Positions 2,750-63,829 of a stretch of DNA of 64,000 nt are shown here, piece by piece; position 1 is the first letter of the stretch; each line of letters begins with the position of its first letter. The notes beneath the pieces are model-generated. The model made no database searches. It was not told the DNA's origin and worked only from the letters and a program-made list of their open reading frames with translations. Origin of the DNA: Pyrococcus kukulkanii (lineage in GTDB: Archaea > Methanobacteriota_B > Thermococci > Thermococcales > Thermococcaceae); the NCBI RefSeq assembly GCF_041647995.1, contig NZ_JARRIB010000003.1:310001-374000 (forward strand), read 5' to 3'. The position numbers and the translations under genes are program-made.

Positions 2750-2758
2750 TTTAAAAAT
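2750..2758 (+). promoter_or_regulatory. TATA box for the GC-rich RNA candidate
   Basis: The sequence tttaaaaat is centred about 26 bp before the first GC-rich base at 2780, the normal archaeal TATA-to-start distance. No protein gene begins on the plus strand there. The same AT stretch could also serve pheS on the minus strand. Confidence 0.55.
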
Positions 2759-2779
2759 CCTTTTTGGTTAAATTAGAAT

Positions 2780-2910
2780 GTCCGACCCCGCCCGGAGGCC
2801 CGACCGAGGGAGCGTGCCGATAACGGCACGCCGTGAACGAGGCGACGTCGCCGGGCGGACAGGGCCCGGTCTCCGGGGCCGCCTGAGGGAGCCGATAATG
2901 GCGAACAATG
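2780..2910 (+). ncRNA. GC-rich structured RNA, probable H/ACA guide RNA
   Basis: This segment of about 130 bases is far more GC-rich than its AT-rich surroundings, a hallmark of stable RNAs in Pyrococcus genomes. The 5' end (gtccg, gcccgg) can pair with ccgggcggac at 2851-2860, closing one long hairpin that is followed at once by ACA (2859-2861). A second hairpin region ends at another ACA (2905-2907). The inner hairpin gtgccgataacggcac is a perfect 6-bp stem. Internal TGA/GA pairs could form K-turns, as H/ACA RNAs need for L7Ae. A TATA box sits 26 bp upstream. The exact ends, number of hairpins and target uridines are not determined. Long ORFs that cross it are GC artefacts. Confidence 0.68.
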
Positions 2911-2932
2911 AGGGCGGGTGGATAAACCGGGC

Positions 2933-3571
2933 CTATACTGCTTCAATTCTTATCCTGTCCCCATCTTTGAGATTCAGGGCTTTTCTCAAGTTTACGGAGG
3001 CTATTATCTCCGCTATCTTTGGAGGATGAATCGTCCGCGAAGGAATGACTATTGCCCCCTCAATACCATTTATCCTGATTCGATAAGCTCTGACGTCTCC
3101 AAAAGTTCTTCCATTCTTTACAAAACCTGGGATTATTATAGGCCGAGAGTTACAGAGCGCATCGAATATTGTCTTTGGAAAGATTACCTTAACGTTTAGG
3201 GTTCCTGGGTAGGGATTAAATCCCAAGTACTCTCTTATCAGGGGAGAGTACTGCTTAACATAATAGGCCCCTTCCCCAATCCCGGAAACTACCTCGCCGA
3301 TAATTATCCCCCTGTAAAGTGCTGATGATAACTCCTCGTACAGAGTTTCAAGTAACTCCATACCTTCATCCTTTATCTGAACCAATGTACCCCTTTTTGA
3401 GCACCTTCTTGAGATGTACCCCAATTCTTCGAGCTCATCAAGCCACCTGAGAACTGTCTGAGGAGAAACATTGAGCTCTTTAGCGAGCTCTCTTAGGGTC
3501 ACCGTAATCTCCCTTCCTATTGCTCCCCTCTTTGTAAGGTTTATTAAGAGGAACAGGGTTTTAAGTTTCAT
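2933..3571 (-). CDS. ribK: CTP-dependent riboflavin kinase with N-terminal HTH
   Basis: Archaeal riboflavin kinase makes FMN from riboflavin using CTP. Residues ~1-85 form a winged helix-turn-helix ([20 protein letters not shown]) and the C-terminal ~125 residues form the RibK barrel, with the GIGEGAYYV and PGTLNVKV signatures. At 212 residues it matches the HTH-fused form of the family. The ATG at 3571 overlaps the stop of the endonuclease V gene (ATGA), indicating translational coupling. The fused HTH suggests that it also acts as a transcription regulator; that is inference. Its 3' end lies close to the 3' end of the opposite-strand RNA candidate. Confidence 0.92.
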
Positions 3572-58720: not shown

Positions 58721-59752
58721 TCATCTAAGCTCCCCAGGGGAACTAAGAAGGAATTTCCACAAGGGCTTCACTTCTATCTCTTTGCCTTCCCTGCTTCCAT
58801 CAACAACGTAAATCTTAGGCAGGCTCTTCTCAACTTTCTTTAAGCTGTACGAGAACCTCTTCAGCGGAAATATTACGTATGCATCGCTGAAGTATTTAAG
58901 GTAGTTGTGGAGGGTGTTCTTACTGACCTCTATTCTGAGGGTCTTCATGTAGTTCGCACTCCTGTTTATGGAAAACTCCTTGGAAAAGGAGGTTATCAGG
59001 AGCTTAAGAAACAATCGAACAGCCTTAAGGTTCTTTATTAAGTGTCTTTCAACAACATCACGGTAAAGCATGACATCCACGTACTCCTCCAAGGTCTTTC
59101 TTTTGAGGTACTCATCATCCATGAGGGCTATTTCTGGAAAACCCCAAATTCAAGATACTCCCTTAGAAAAGCTTTTATCCTCGCTTCCTTTTTAGTTGAG
59201 ATGTACTTTTCAACCTTCAAGCCCTTAGCTTCCAGAAATTCTCGAAAACTGAAGGGAAAGAGTTCAAAAGTCAATGTTCTGCCCCTCAAGCTTGAGGCAA
59301 TCTCCTTGCTTAAAAGTTTTGAAGAGGGCCCGTCAAGAAGACAAAGAACCCTTCCCGCTCAACTGCTCTTTTAGCGAAAAGCTCCCAGTTCTTGACTTCT
59401 TGAATTTCATCGAGGAACAGATATTTTTCATCGGCATCAGGATAGAGTTCATAAAACACCTTTATAACTGCCCCCAGGTCTTCCAAGGATGGAGGATAAA
59501 GCCTGTCATCGTCCAGAGGCAGAAAAAGAGTCGCTTTTCCTTCATCCCTAAGTTTCGTAAAGAGGGAGAACAAGTAGAATGTTTTCCAGCCCTCCTAGGC
59601 CCAATTATTGTGATTGCCTTTCTAACGGGTAATCTAGTGGGGGCTTGGAGTTTCCTCTTAACGCCTTTAATTTGGATCTCAAGAAAGTCCTTAGCGATCT
59701 GCCCAATGGTATCCTCGCGACTCATGTTAAGTATGTAGGTAAAAATTCTCAA
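58721..59752 (-). pseudogene. Frameshifted AAA ATPase with DUF4143-type C-terminus
   Basis: Reading the minus strand across frames gives a complete ATPase: ITIIGPRRAGK (Walker A) breaks just after the Lys. The second frame continues TFYLFSLFTKLRDEGK to KYLFLDEIQEVKNW (Walker B) and FLTGP. A third frame continues SSKLLSKEIASSLRGR. After another shift at about 59135 the last part is LMDDEYLKRKTLEEYVDVML to the DUF4143 end. At least three single-base shifts are needed, each in or beside short homopolymers, so the gene is dead or the assembly has errors here. The likely start is Met 59725. Confidence 0.82.
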
Positions 59753-59854
59753 AAAAGTTTCCCTCTATGAAGGGAAAGTTTGGTGGATCTAGTTTGACAC
59801 TGTGAGAAACTCTTATAAACTATGTCCGACAAATGGGGATAATAGGTGGATAAA

Positions 59855-60124
59855 ATGGCGACAACAGTTAAGGTTTCAGCGAGGATACCAAAGGGTCTTG
59901 TGGAGAAAATGGACAAGCTGGTAGAAGAGGGTCTTTACTCGAGCCGAAGTGAAATAATAAAAGAAGCTCTTAGGGACTTTCTGCTTCGAAGGAGAGTTGT
60001 AGAAGATTTTGAGCTTATAGAATACCTCAAAAGCGTTGAAAAAATCCTCAAAGAAGATTGGGAGAGCGAAGCAGACGAGTACTGGGACGAGATTGGGGGA
60101 GTAGCATATGAACCAAAGGAATGA
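59855..60124 (+). CDS. RHH antitoxin of a MazF-type toxin-antitoxin pair
   Basis: 89 residues with a ribbon-helix-helix at the N-terminus (TTVKVSARIPKGLVEKMDKL then SSRSEIIKEALRDFL) and an acidic C-terminal tail (ESEADEYWDEIGG) of the kind that wraps its toxin. ATG 59855 follows aggtgg; the three-codon-longer GTG start is less likely. It overlaps the toxin gene by 17 bp. Antitoxins of this class repress their own operon. Confidence 0.88.
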   Translation: MATTVKVSARIPKGLVEKMDKLVEEGLYSSRSEIIKEALRDFLLRRRVVEDFELIEYLKSVEKILKEDWESEADEYWDEIGGVAYEPKE

Positions 60125-60476
60125 GCTCCTTCAGTGGGAGATAGTCCTCCTTGATTTCCCCTTCGTTGATCTTATTGGCAAAAAACTTCGTCCTGCCCTC
60201 ATTGCTTCAAATAATAATCTCAACAAAATTTCAAACGCCGTTATAGCTCTTCAAATCACGTCTAATATTAGAAGTGGTTTCACTGAGTACAACATTAAAA
60301 TCACCGATAACGATGTTATACGTTATCCTGGGACGAAACCCTTAAGACCAAGCCTGATAAAGCCGTACGTTATTTTTACGATTGAAAAGTCTTTGATAAG
60401 AAAACGAATTGGTATCCTCAAGAGAGAAAAGGTTATAGAAGTCAAAGAAAGCCTCAGGCGAATCTTTGATCTTTAG
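60108..60476 (+). CDS. MazF/PemK-family mRNA interferase toxin
   Basis: 122 residues with the PemK/MazF beta-barrel pattern: WEIVLLDFPF at the start, GKKLRPALIASN (the conserved RPALI strand), then LRPSLIKPYVIFTIEKSLI. It would cleave mRNA when freed from its antitoxin. The start lies within the antitoxin gene. It is intact and sits between two broken ATPase genes. Confidence 0.88.
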   Translation: MNQRNELLQWEIVLLDFPFVDLIGKKLRPALIASNNNLNKISNAVIALQITSNIRSGFTEYNIKITDNDVIRYPGTKPLRPSLIKPYVIFTIEKSLIRKRIGILKREKVIEVKESLRRIFDL

Positions 60477-60488
60477 CTTCTTTTGACT

Positions 60489-61532
60489 TCATGATCTCCT
60501 AAGGACAATGCCAACAACAGGATCAGTCAACTTGTACTCTCCGTTCTCTTCCCCAACCCACCCCATCTTTTTCAGGTTCTTGAGTAGCTCATAAAGTCTC
60601 GGCTCGGGAGTTTTCATGCCTTTTAAGGTTAGATAATCCCTTATAAGGCTCCACCTATTGTACCCGAGTGCTATTGCCCTCAAAATTTGAACGTACCTTC
60701 TGCTCCTCCTCTCCAGCTCTCTTAACTCCCCCACGAGGAGGCCCCTAGCAACATCGAATGTCGCCTTTATTGCCCTATCAAAGTCTTTAGTTTCCATGTA
60801 CTTGACTCCAAATAGAACGAGCCACCCAGGAATACCATCAAGAGTTGATACTGCCTTTTCTACCTCCTCCGAAATTTTAGCGCCTGCTTCTTCGAACCCA
60901 GCTTTTAGGAAGGCTTTCGAGGTTTCTTTATCGAATGGCCCAATGTGGATTTCCCCCCAACCCTTCCGTAGAGGGGGCTCTCATAGTCATCTATACCGAG
61001 AAAATCATGGAGTAGACCAACCTCTGAGCCCGTGAGGATTATCCTCAGGTTTGGCAGACTGTCGTAGGCATGAGCAAACAATGCTAAAAGCTCCCTCCTG
61101 CCTCGTGAGCCGTAGAAGCGCAGGTATTGGGCCTCATCGAATGCTATTATAAACCTACCTGTTTCCTCGCCAAGCCTGTCCAGCTCCCTGAAAACTTCTC
61201 TCAGTGATGCTTCCTTTGGTTCTACCTCAAGGAATCTCATGTTTAGTTTTATCCTGAACTTGGCAAAGAGTCTTTGGAGTAGTCCTTGGATATTCCTTTA
61301 TGAGGTCTTCCCTCGTTATGTGCCCGCTCTCCGCATAGAGCTCTCTGCAGTCTATCAGAATCCCAGGATTTTCATTGAGATATGCCCTGAGTATGGAGCT
61401 CTTGCCTACTCGCCTCATTCCGAGGATGAGGGTTAAAGGATACCTCTCGACACTCTTCTCAAGCTCTTCAAACTCTTTTTCCCTGTCAAATATTTCATCT
61501 CTTCTTTCCTTTGGCCTGAGATCGAACGGCAC
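60489..61532 (-). pseudogene. Second frameshifted AAA ATPase
   Basis: A minus-strand ATPase interrupted by two frameshifts. Part 1 has REKEFEELEKSVERYPLTLI and Walker A GMRRVGKSSI and leaves frame near 61265. Part 2 has FIIAFDEAQYLRF (Walker B), IILTGSEVGLLHD and SPLYGR and leaves frame near 60970. The sense then resumes as WGEIHIGPFDKETSKA and runs through to a C-terminal winged helix (YELLKNLKKMGWVGEENGEY) ending at 60489. It belongs to the archaeal ATPase family but is a different subgroup from the 58.7-kb pseudogene. Confidence 0.82.
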
Positions 61533-61613: not shown

Positions 61614-62135
61614 ATGCGGATCTTCATCAGAAACTACTTTCTCCCCTGGCTCTTAATCATTGTCTTTTGGCTTGCCCTCTGGCTTCTCAGTTCTCAACTC
61701 AGGGAAAGCCTTAATGTCGTGAACGTTTTCGTTGCTTTCCTTCTCCTCGTTCCATTCCTCCTCGTGGCGCTTCACTTCGTTGGAAAGGCCCTCGAGCGCT
61801 ACGGCTACTCGCGGGAGGATATAAAGCGCCTTCCGGAGATAATCAAGAAAACTCACGGGAGACTCTACATCTCAAAGGAAGTCTTTGATATTGTTGGCAA
61901 AGCGCTGATATTCTGGGGATTAATGGCTACAGCCGTTGTTATGACGAGGGATCCATTAAAGGGGCTTCTCAACGGGGCCGCAATATTTGCCAGGATCTTC
62001 GCCCTCTTCATTATCCTCGTCTCAATGGTCATCTGGGTTATGGCCTTTCCTCATGGCCTGTATAAGCTTCTTACCGGGAATAAACTCAATAGGGACTTTT
62101 TAGTTGAGCTAATGAGGCAGAACATCTTTTATACG
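61614..62135 (+). pseudogene. Membrane protein, 5' part, interrupted by an insertion
   Basis: 174 codons of a polytopic membrane protein (MRIFIRNYFLPWLLIIVFWL; four to five helices) up to NIFYT. The frame then enters the inserted element and translates structure-rich DNA to a stop at 62306. The missing C-terminal 84 residues are found in the same frame at 63575-63829. The intact protein would be about 258 residues. Family not recognised. Confidence 0.85.
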
Positions 62136-62144
62136 GGGTCTTCT

Positions 62145-62172
62145 CCACGTGAGTTTTTGTGGGCTCACGTGG
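62145..62172. repeat. Left-end hairpin of the insertion
   Basis: ccacgtgag (62145-62153) and ctcacgtgg (62164-62172) are perfect 9-bp arms. A subterminal hairpin near the left end is what single-strand transposases of the IS200/IS605 family recognise. Confidence 0.6.
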
Positions 62173-62179
62173 GGGTTCA

Positions 62180-62335
62180 TTCCCCGAGGTTCTGCGGGTG
62201 CCCGGACTTAGACCGCCCCACCCACTGTTCTCTTAAGCCAGTACACTATGGCGGAACGGGTCGCCCGAACACCCGCAGGGTTCAGCCAGCCCTCCACCTC
62301 GCCTAGCTCACCGACTTCACCGGACTGACCTCACA
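62180..62335. ncRNA. GC-rich structured segment, candidate RNA of the insertion
   Basis: About 155 bp, much more GC-rich than the flanks and without a plausible gene. ctgcgggtg (62192-62200) is perfectly complementary to cacccgcag (62270-62278), enclosing smaller possible stems (gaccgcc with ggcgg; cccgg with cgggt). Strand is undecided. It lies before the protein genes, not after them where TnpB guide RNAs normally arise. Confidence 0.4.
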
Positions 62336-62375
62336 ACCAAAAACTATTTAAGTAAACAAGTATTTAAGTATTTTG

Positions 62376-62537
62376 GTGAATACAGTGGGAGTTATTACAG
62401 TGAAGATTCCGGATGAGTTAGAAGTTAAGTTCCGGAAGAAAATCCTCGAAGTTTATGGGCCGAGGAAGGGGGCCCTCGGAATGGCCATAACGGAGGCTAT
62501 TGAGCTATGGCTCGAAAAACACGAAGAGCAGAAGTGA
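62376..62537 (+). CDS. Small RHH protein upstream of the TnpB-like gene
   Basis: 53 residues starting (GTG) with NTVGVITVKIPDELEVKF and ending AITEAIELWLEKHEEQK: a ribbon-helix-helix, the strand and two helices of a DNA-binding dimer. Its last ~30 bp overlap the start of the TnpB-like gene in another frame, so the two are coupled. tatttaagtatttt lies directly upstream and could be a promoter for a leaderless transcript. It is too short for ordinary ORF callers. The start is accurate to within a codon. Confidence 0.7.
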   Translation: MNTVGVITVKIPDELEVKFRKKILEVYGPRKGALGMAITEAIELWLEKHEEQK

Positions 62538-63574
62538 ACTACGTCACCATCAAGACAAAACTCGAACCAGAAAAGCGAGAGGATTATTTGAAACTCGCCC
62601 TCTTGGCGGAAAAGTTCAGAAGAGCAGTTGAGCTGGCGATAAGACTCCAGCTTAAAGGCGTTAAGAAGAGTGTGGGTGTAAAAGAAGTCTCTCGGTTAGT
62701 TCTTAATAACTGGTGGTATTCTGATAGTGCATGGGATTATGCGAAAATGTTGTTGAGAGGAGCAGAACAGAACGGTGGAAATCCAAGGCACATTCACCTG
62801 AAGTCAAAATTCCTCATCAGTAAACCTAAGGAGAATGAGAAGGGGAATAGGAACGTGAGGATTGAGTGGCCGAACGTTAGAATTCGCTCCAACGGAGAGT
62901 GGTTGGAGTTTAGAATGAAGACTGCCGAGAAGTTTCTCCCAGTTATTCTTGATGTCCAGAAGTTCAAATACGGTGCTCAGGTTGTCCTGAAGAACGGGAA
63001 GATTTACCTGCACGTCCAAGTGCTCTTTGGAATTTATCTGAAACATCTCGGAAAGATCACTAGGGGTAGGCTGTACGCCGATTTCGACTTGAACTCTGAT
63101 AGGGTGAATATGGTTATTCTTGACGAGACTGGTATTATCAGGGATGTTAGGGTTGAGCACTTCCCGGAGGTCAATTCCTCCGGGTTCTCAAGAAGGAAGG
63201 CGAGGGATTTAAGGCTGAAGGCTCTTGCCCAGTTACTGGACTATGCCTACCACCACGGGGTAGGGACTGTATTCTTCGAGGACTTGGGTAAGATAAAAAG
63301 AAGAAATGGTAAGGCGGCTGGTTCGAGGAAGGGGAATAGGAAGGCCTCAAATTTCGCCAAGAAGGAGCTCCTTGAACACGGGATTGTTATGGCGTCGAAG
63401 AGAGGTTTCAAGGTTTACCTAGTTAATCCTGCCGATTCTTCGAAGTCGGGACGAGAGCTGGCCCGGGGGCTGGGGCTGGACGTCCATACTGCATCAGCGT
63501 TCGTTATTGGTTGGTGGGGCGTTAATTCCCTGAAGACTCACGAAAACTCACAAAAAGAGGAACAGTTTGGATAG
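62507..63574 (+). CDS. TnpB-like protein lacking the zinc finger
   Basis: 355 residues related to the IS200/IS605 TnpB (OrfB) family. RuvC-I is ADFDLNSDRVNMVIL near 190 (Asp present), RuvC-II is VFFEDLGKIKRR near 255 (Glu present), and RuvC-III is DVHTASAFVIG near 324 (Asp present). Between II and III, TnpB has VNPRYTSQTC and a four-Cys zinc finger. Here the same place reads VNPADSSKSGRELARGLGL, with no cysteines. It is therefore a divergent, finger-less branch; nuclease activity is possible but unproven. It is paired with an RHH protein and has no TnpA. Confidence 0.82.
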   Translation: MARKTRRAEVNYVTIKTKLEPEKREDYLKLALLAEKFRRAVELAIRLQLKGVKKSVGVKEVSRLVLNNWWYSDSAWDYAKMLLRGAEQNGGNPRHIHLKSKFLISKPKENEKGNRNVRIEWPNVRIRSNGEWLEFRMKTAEKFLPVILDVQKFKYGAQVVLKNGKIYLHVQVLFGIYLKHLGKITRGRLYADFDLNSDRVNMVILDETGIIRDVRVEHFPEVNSSGFSRRKARDLRLKALAQLLDYAYHHGVGTVFFEDLGKIKRRNGKAAGSRKGNRKASNFAKKELLEHGIVMASKRGFKVYLVNPADSSKSGRELARGLGLDVHTASAFVIGWWGVNSLKTHENSQKEEQFG

Positions 63575-63829
63575 GCGATTCTTATCGCGGTCAGAATCAT
63601 CGGACTTCACTCTGGCTATCTTGCTGGCGATGATCCCATAGGGGAGCTCATGGCCCTTGGCAGAAGTAGCAATATTGTAAACTCACTTCTTGAACTTTCT
63701 GGCCTGAACTTCCTCTTTGGTCTCGTGGGCCTCTACGGGCCGAGGAAAAGCAGAAAGCTGACAGCGTTGGCTTTAACTCTAATCGTGATTAGTCAGGTGT
63801 GGATTGTGCGGGTAATAATTTTTGGATGA
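63575..63829 (+). pseudogene. Membrane protein, 3' part after the insertion
   Basis: Continues the 61614 gene in frame with AILIAVRIIGLHSGYLAGDD and ends in two hydrophobic helices (LNFLFGLVGLYG; LTLIVISQVWIV). There is no start codon or ribosome binding site of its own. Confidence 0.82.

Follow-up and report, generated by a model that had tools for sequence, protein, structure and literature searches.

A TnpB-like mobile element of archaea that lacks TnpA and may carry a mirrored guide RNA

The window considered here is a stretch of 64,000 nucleotides from Pyrococcus kukulkanii (contig NZ_JARRIB010000003.1, positions 310,001 to 374,000). Close to its right edge it carries a mobile element of about 1.44 kb encoding a TnpB-like protein without a zinc finger. 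We consider it somewhat more probable than all other outcomes taken together that this element of hyperthermophilic archaea is derived from TnpB, dispenses with TnpA and has a mirrored layout, in which the guide RNA would be transcribed antisense to tnpB at the left end and the target-adjacent motif (TAM) would lie on the 3′ side of tnpB. According to PMC8612924, the RNA of canonical TnpB systems overlaps the 3′ end of tnpB and reads across the right end of the element, the TAM lying at the left. In the window element, by contrast, all three features (the RNA, the end that it would cross and the target motif) take the mirror-image position with respect to the gene. A previous reading of this DNA, hereafter the sequence-only reading, had drawn attention to the nuclease gene and to its small neighbour. 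It lacked the RNA and the bounded element, and the antisense structured RNA is weightier than the features that it described.

A bounded mobile element and its target site

62135-63573, plus strand: mobile element of about 1.44 kb, with ends GGGGTC ... TTTGGATA|GGCG; the boundaries are ambiguous by the shared GG
61614-63829, plus strand: interrupted host gene, with halves 61614-62134 and 63574-63829; the frame is restored on joining the flanks
63574-63577, plus strand: target motif GGCG (GGCR in the family), on the 3′ side of tnpB; on the minus strand, 5′-YGCC, the predicted TAM

Positions 62135-63573 form a bounded mobile element devoid of TnpA. Twelve relatives align with window positions 62134-63577 at 73-99% identity, and their homology stops sharply at the element ends. 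Beyond these, the flanks are unrelated, except in a copy from the same species. An empty site in genome G007 aligns over 783/783 columns without a gap, at 89% identity, and reads TATAC|GGYG at the junction; empty sites are also present in other relatives. The interrupted host gene has homologues in at least 30 relatives. Further copies of the element sit inside trpB and methyltransferase genes, where joining the flanks also restores the frames.

No target-site duplication is seen at the element ends when they are compared with empty sites. On the right flank, all 7 intact insertions have CR after the shared GG, as do 3 right-end fragments; the motif is found in the empty sites too. The left flank is variable, with no motif among the insertions compared. 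The right end of the element varies among copies by indels and truncations. Solo right ends at three loci (L051-L053) were considered as a second type of gene, but they are remnants.

The element contains no tnpA, neither of the Y1 nor of the serine-recombinase type. A Y1 TnpA is also missing from six essentially complete carrier genomes (G000, G005, G021, G032, G086, and G090), two of which, G086 and G090, give no match to an IS607 TnpA query either. Other IS607 copies exist in the genome. The missing target duplication, together with GG at both ends, agrees equally with IS607 and with a target of the YGCC type.

The finger-less nuclease and its small partner

62507-63574, plus strand: finger-less TnpB-like gene, encoding 355 aa; its TAG stop codon spans the right boundary of the element
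62376-62537, plus strand: gene of a small DNA-binding protein resembling ribbon-helix-helix (RHH) proteins, with a GTG start, present in all copies of clade A; helices 13-27 and 33-50 in the AlphaFold2 (AF2) model

According to its AF2 model (13-row alignment, pLDDT 80, pTM 0.73), the product of the tnpB-like open reading frame (ORF) has the TnpB/Cas12f fold. A Foldseek comparison of this model with the PDB gives Cas12f as the best match (E 2e-9); ISDra2 TnpB (8exa) is found with E 3.4e-6 and TMq 0.51, and Cas12k is also matched. At the sequence level, the protein scores 79.5 bits against NCBIfam TIGR01765 (tspaseT_teng_N; cut-off 47.25). It obtains 36.6 bits with guided_TnpB, under the cut-off of 100, and is likewise below threshold with TIGR01766. 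A Pfam search returned no match, IS110 transposase domains included, and a sequence search of the PDB returned nothing significant. The sole PDB sequence match with E < 0.01, an adiponectin chain, was rejected, no stretch of it passing alone.

In the aligned proteins, the RuvC triad of the window protein corresponds to D194, E258, and D325. The first two residues are invariant across 44 aligned proteins and the third is found in 41/44; the complete D-E-D is kept in every aligned member associated with an RHH or an AbrB-like partner. Between the NP motif and D325, the window protein has 19 residues and no Cys, whereas the zinc-finger interval of four fingered TnpBs from the same archaeal family has 34-39 residues with 4 Cys. 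A Cys-free replacement of 19-21 residues is found in all archaeal members aligned.

The small ORF (about 53 aa, 53-56 aa among copies) overlaps the start of tnpB by 31 nt. It occurs in 13/13 Thermococcaceae copies and in one Desulfurococcales copy. The encoded protein is likely an RHH protein. Pfam RHH_6 and RHH_3 match it with E 0.04-0.06, below the cut-off; its AF2 model has two helices (pLDDT 81); and the top match of a PDB profile search, 2kel, reaches E 0.17 only, Foldseek giving nothing significant. Values of dN/dS are 0.084 for tnpB and 0.077 for the partner gene (median about 0.08 for both genes), at a near-saturated dS of around 0.8-1.6. Such values in both genes argue that the ORFs are not due to chance.

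Thus, much of the sequence-only reading stands. The three RuvC acids, the Cys-free stretch in place of the finger and the lack of TnpA are all borne out, and the structure prediction that it had called for does point to TnpB. The coupling with the small gene holds in all 13 Thermococcaceae copies, while the RHH assignment remains likely, given the sub-threshold matches.

An antisense left-end RNA and a proposed mirrored layout

62135-62339, minus strand: conserved structured non-coding RNA (ncRNA); its 5′ end is predicted near 62339, from where it extends outward as far as the element's left end
62192-62278, minus strand: long hairpin of the ncRNA, 28 pairs
62142-62175, either strand: terminal hairpin of the left end, four pairs with double changes
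62135-62138, minus strand: closing helix CCCC, the last four bases of the element, pairing with 62182-62185 (GGGG); 43/44 cells paired
62345-62370, either strand: two TATTTAAGTA boxes 16 bp apart, at 62345 and 62361; predicted divergent promoter and candidate RHH operator
62115-62134, minus strand: predicted guide, host flank 5′-GUAUAAAAGAUGUUCUGCCU-3′, expected if the RNA continues past the element end into the flank, as is the rule for canonical TnpB

The left end is separated from the promoter by 205 nt with a G+C content of 62%, compared with 47% in the genes. Their column identity is 87%, a conservation above that of both genes. RNAalifold gives -86.2 kcal/mol for the minus strand versus -54.3 kcal/mol for the plus strand. 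In the two main helix groups, 117/121 and 301/307 cells are paired on the minus strand (418/428 in total), as against 91/121 and 243/307 on the plus strand (334/428), the second count of each pair being that of the long hairpin. The minus strand pairs better because many changes are from G-C to G-U on that strand. Overall, 96.5% of the ncRNA cells are paired and 10 pairs are changed on both sides. The covariation score was reached by none of 500 shuffles, and sliding the pairing partners reduces pairing from 96.5% to under 50%. The RNA matches no Rfam family.

A covariance model built from 11 copies recovers the RNA in other members of the family, always antisense and upstream of tnpB: in a Desulfurococcales locus (L036, E 1e-10), in the AbrB clade (L091, L094), in the partner-less clade (L095, L097), and in L112 and L107. 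Neither the genome's canonical TnpB loci nor ten elements of the IS607 type give a match to it. Solo RNA remnants occur at L139 (3609-3769, G007), which retains a short tnpB fragment, and at L140 (3684-3823, G008). Weak matches to the model at window positions 2755-2933 (plus strand; E 0.03 and 4.5) are probably due to chance. At locus L118 (G000:C7), an IS607 tnpA adjoins a copy of the ncRNA. A shared element end was rejected there because the IS607 insertion is nested and unrelated, ten other copies being without the RNA. The nested element, which has a fingered TnpB, starts with GGCTGTTC and ends with GGAAACGG; it is inserted at GG within an antisense-RNA remnant (1501-1664 and 1694 onwards).

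The TATTTAAGTA/TATTTAAGAA boxes keep a constant 16-bp spacing in 10/11 copies, one box being varied in the remaining copy. The second box begins about 15-16 nt ahead of the RHH start codon. Standard archaeal promoter geometry was used to place transcription starts relative to the boxes. On this basis, one box would give a leaderless RHH-tnpB mRNA starting near 62376 and the other an antisense RNA starting near 62339.

These features lead us to propose that the element most likely acts in the manner of TnpB, using a guide RNA in mirrored position. From the divergent promoter, a leaderless mRNA would direct the synthesis of the small DNA-binding protein and of the finger-less RuvC nuclease, and transcription of the opposite strand would yield a scaffold RNA of about 205 nt ending exactly at the left end of the element. 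Because the scaffold ends there, its 3′ tail would consist of host flank and would serve as the guide. The ribonucleoprotein formed by the nuclease and this RNA would recognize the empty site on a sister chromosome through the 5′-YGCC TAM followed by the complement of the left flank. Cleavage of the empty site would then allow recombination to restore the element. Cutting of the element itself would not be expected since the predicted TAM differs from the 3′-terminal CCCC of the RNA. As suggested by the paired TATA repeats at the promoter, the small protein would most likely act as a promoter regulator. The view that it is a recognition partner proper to this nuclease, put forward in the sequence-only reading, is not supported because the partner-less clade retains both the RNA and the nuclease.

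Several lines of evidence support the mirrored layout: the element and its empty site, the covariation and strand asymmetry of the minus-strand RNA, the Cas12f/TnpB fold and the conserved triad. The antisense RNA lies upstream of tnpB in the RHH, AbrB and partner-less clades alike, and the target motif is confined to the 3′ side of tnpB, opposite the RNA end. The constant promoter geometry and the unconstrained 3′ end of tnpB argue in the same direction. In the last 60 tnpB codons, where a canonical omega-RNA would overlap, four-fold sites and those of the rest of the gene are equally variable (0.47-0.49 identity), and their comparison reveals no synonymous constraint.

Some observations weigh on the other side. 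The finger (TNB domain) of canonical TnpB and Cas12f is missing from the window protein, and three of the 44 aligned relatives are devoid of D325. Either strand can form the terminal hairpin about equally well, and this structure could act as DNA. De novo folds upstream of tnpB in clades B and C also favour the minus strand, but they come from 3-7 sequences each, optimised on the strand tested. A search with joined flanks found no empty site in clade B, so that the CCC right-end motif of clades B and C is not proven to be target-derived. Finally, the mirrored guide is a prediction from sequence and models.

Other explanations have to be considered. With a clearly lower probability, the nuclease would use an ordinary guide RNA at the 3′/right end, and the left-end antisense RNA would be a separate regulator, of the antisense or leader type, or else a structure on which a transposase acts. 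Transposons commonly have antisense RNAs, and a DNA hairpin would pair on both strands as the terminal hairpin does. Moreover, the 3′/right-end layout is the one described for TnpB (PMC8612924). However, the element ends at the tnpB stop codon, which leaves little room for a 3′ RNA, and this right end differs among copies. The variable four-fold sites and the position of the sole target motif, on the right side, also argue against such a guide.

It is unlikely that the nuclease, the RNA and the DNA-binding protein form a transposition machinery, that is, a recombinase-like system directed by RNA, devoid of TnpA and nearer in function to the bridge RNA of IS110. An ncRNA in a non-coding end beside a RuvC-fold protein does resemble IS110 anatomy. 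A dinucleotide is common to the ends (GG in clade A, possibly CC in clades B and C), and neither a Y1 TnpA nor a match to the IS607 TnpA query is found in G086 and G090. Nevertheless, the fold is that of TnpB/Cas12f and Pfam gives no IS110 transposase domain. Near-identical copies in unrelated targets of one genome argue against site choice by a fixed RNA loop, and the element may have lost its TnpA or may be served by one encoded elsewhere. Equally unlikely is a self-sufficient RNA-directed mobile system in which the finger-less nuclease, the antisense left-end RNA and, where a partner is present, the swappable small DNA-binding protein would jointly ensure both targeting and movement without TnpA.

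An RNA-guided repressor resembling TldR, having lost cleavage and using the RHH protein as co-regulator, is still less probable. The linked DNA-binding protein, the loss of the finger and the missing third Asp of three relatives would fit this idea, at which the sequence-only reading had hinted. The intact D-E-D of all aligned RHH and AbrB members, the strong purifying selection and the location in a mobile element whose sites are unrelated, instead of at one fixed locus of the host, speak against it. Least probable is a degenerate or domesticated remnant without present function: most genomes have one copy, several copies are frameshifted or fragmentary and TnpA is absent, but both genes show dN/dS of about 0.08 at near-saturated dS and the RNA is conserved beyond the genes.

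Distribution and comparison with known systems

Matches, fragments counted, were found in 14/94 Thermococcaceae genomes and in 26/98 genomes of an order-level sample around the Desulfurococcales carrier. Phage and viral collections contain no relative, and a plasmid collection gave one distant bacterial IS607 protein only. In a tree that took in four fingered TnpBs, and that leaves the root of the finger-less clade unplaced, the finger-less archaeal proteins group with a bacterial Peptoclostridium protein (support 100/99). RHH and AbrB members form one clade (100/100), the RHH group has support 93/83 and the partner-less group 100/99. A distinct finger-less offshoot, as proposed from the sequence alone, is therefore recovered, and its closest relatives are finger-less too. 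The linkage survey suggested at the same time shows repeated association with RHH or AbrB-like partners in two phyla of archaea. The clade spans Thermococcales and Thermoproteota, with an RHH partner, an AbrB-like partner or no partner.

In Thermoproteota, an AbrB/MazE-like small ORF (a weak label, Pfam E 0.045) replaces the RHH gene upstream of the finger-less tnpB (L073, L078, L079, L082, L089, L091, L094, L109, and L110). Elements of clades B and C have ends CCGTT... and ...CWGCCC, and one genome has two copies that are 99.3% identical but whose flanks are unrelated.

In the neighbourhood of the window element, a PemK/MazF-type toxin gene comes after a CopG-type RHH gene (59846-60476, plus strand), the two making up an ordinary toxin-antitoxin pair. 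An archaeal ATPase (ATPase_2) broken into pieces, plus a C-terminal winged-helix piece, occupies 60489-61532 (minus strand). Short overlapping reverse-strand ORFs at 59128-59752 (minus strand) resemble, by eye, a second broken ATPase.

If the mirrored reading is true, RNA-guided systems would have a new layout, with the guide on the opposite strand and at the opposite end. With its conserved element-end RNA antisense at the other end, its missing finger and its exchangeable small DNA-binding partners, this clade of two archaeal phyla would show that the guide, the nuclease and the end of the transposon can be separated as modules. Hyperthermophiles would also be the source of a compact nuclease (about 355 aa). 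Predictions of the guide, the 5′-YGCC TAM and the RNA ends make the claim directly testable.

Our literature search, of limited coverage, found no paper on RHH-linked or antisense-RNA TnpB; an earlier description is possible. TldR repressors have an inactivated RuvC site, unlike the window family, the triad of which is intact in the RHH and AbrB clades. In IscB systems, the omega-RNA precedes the nuclease gene, shares its strand and has its guide at the 5′ side, and the protein has an HNH domain. The upstream RNA is common to both, but that of the window element lies on the strand opposite to the nuclease gene. With IS110 bridge-RNA elements (PMC11208160), the window element shares an ncRNA in a non-coding end beside a RuvC-fold gene; its protein belongs to a different family, without an IS110 domain match. 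Cas12f, the type V-F CRISPR effector, is the top structural match, but it has the TNB finger, and the window gene resides in a mobile element whose flanks differ between copies.

The Peptoclostridium protein (WP_025436780.1) shares the N-terminal domain of TIGR01765, although with 36.6 bits, under the cut-off of 47.25, and is also finger-less. Unlike the window protein, it has 516 aa, carries Ser at the D325 position and is encoded behind an IS607 TnpA, in an IS607 element (L183, 1090-3304) where the ncRNA (R1) model has no match. Finally, TnpB of IS200/IS605 and IS607, such as ISDra2 TnpB, has in common with the window system the RuvC D-E-D, the TnpB/Cas12f fold, the mobile element and an RNA at the element end that is proposed to continue into the flank. 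It differs from the window family in that, in the latter, an RHH or AbrB-like gene can be linked to the nuclease gene, the RNA is antisense and at the opposite end, and the target motif stands on the 3′ side of tnpB. Because of its missing finger and TnpA, its RNA position and the side of its predicted TAM, the window element is not filed as a canonical TnpB.
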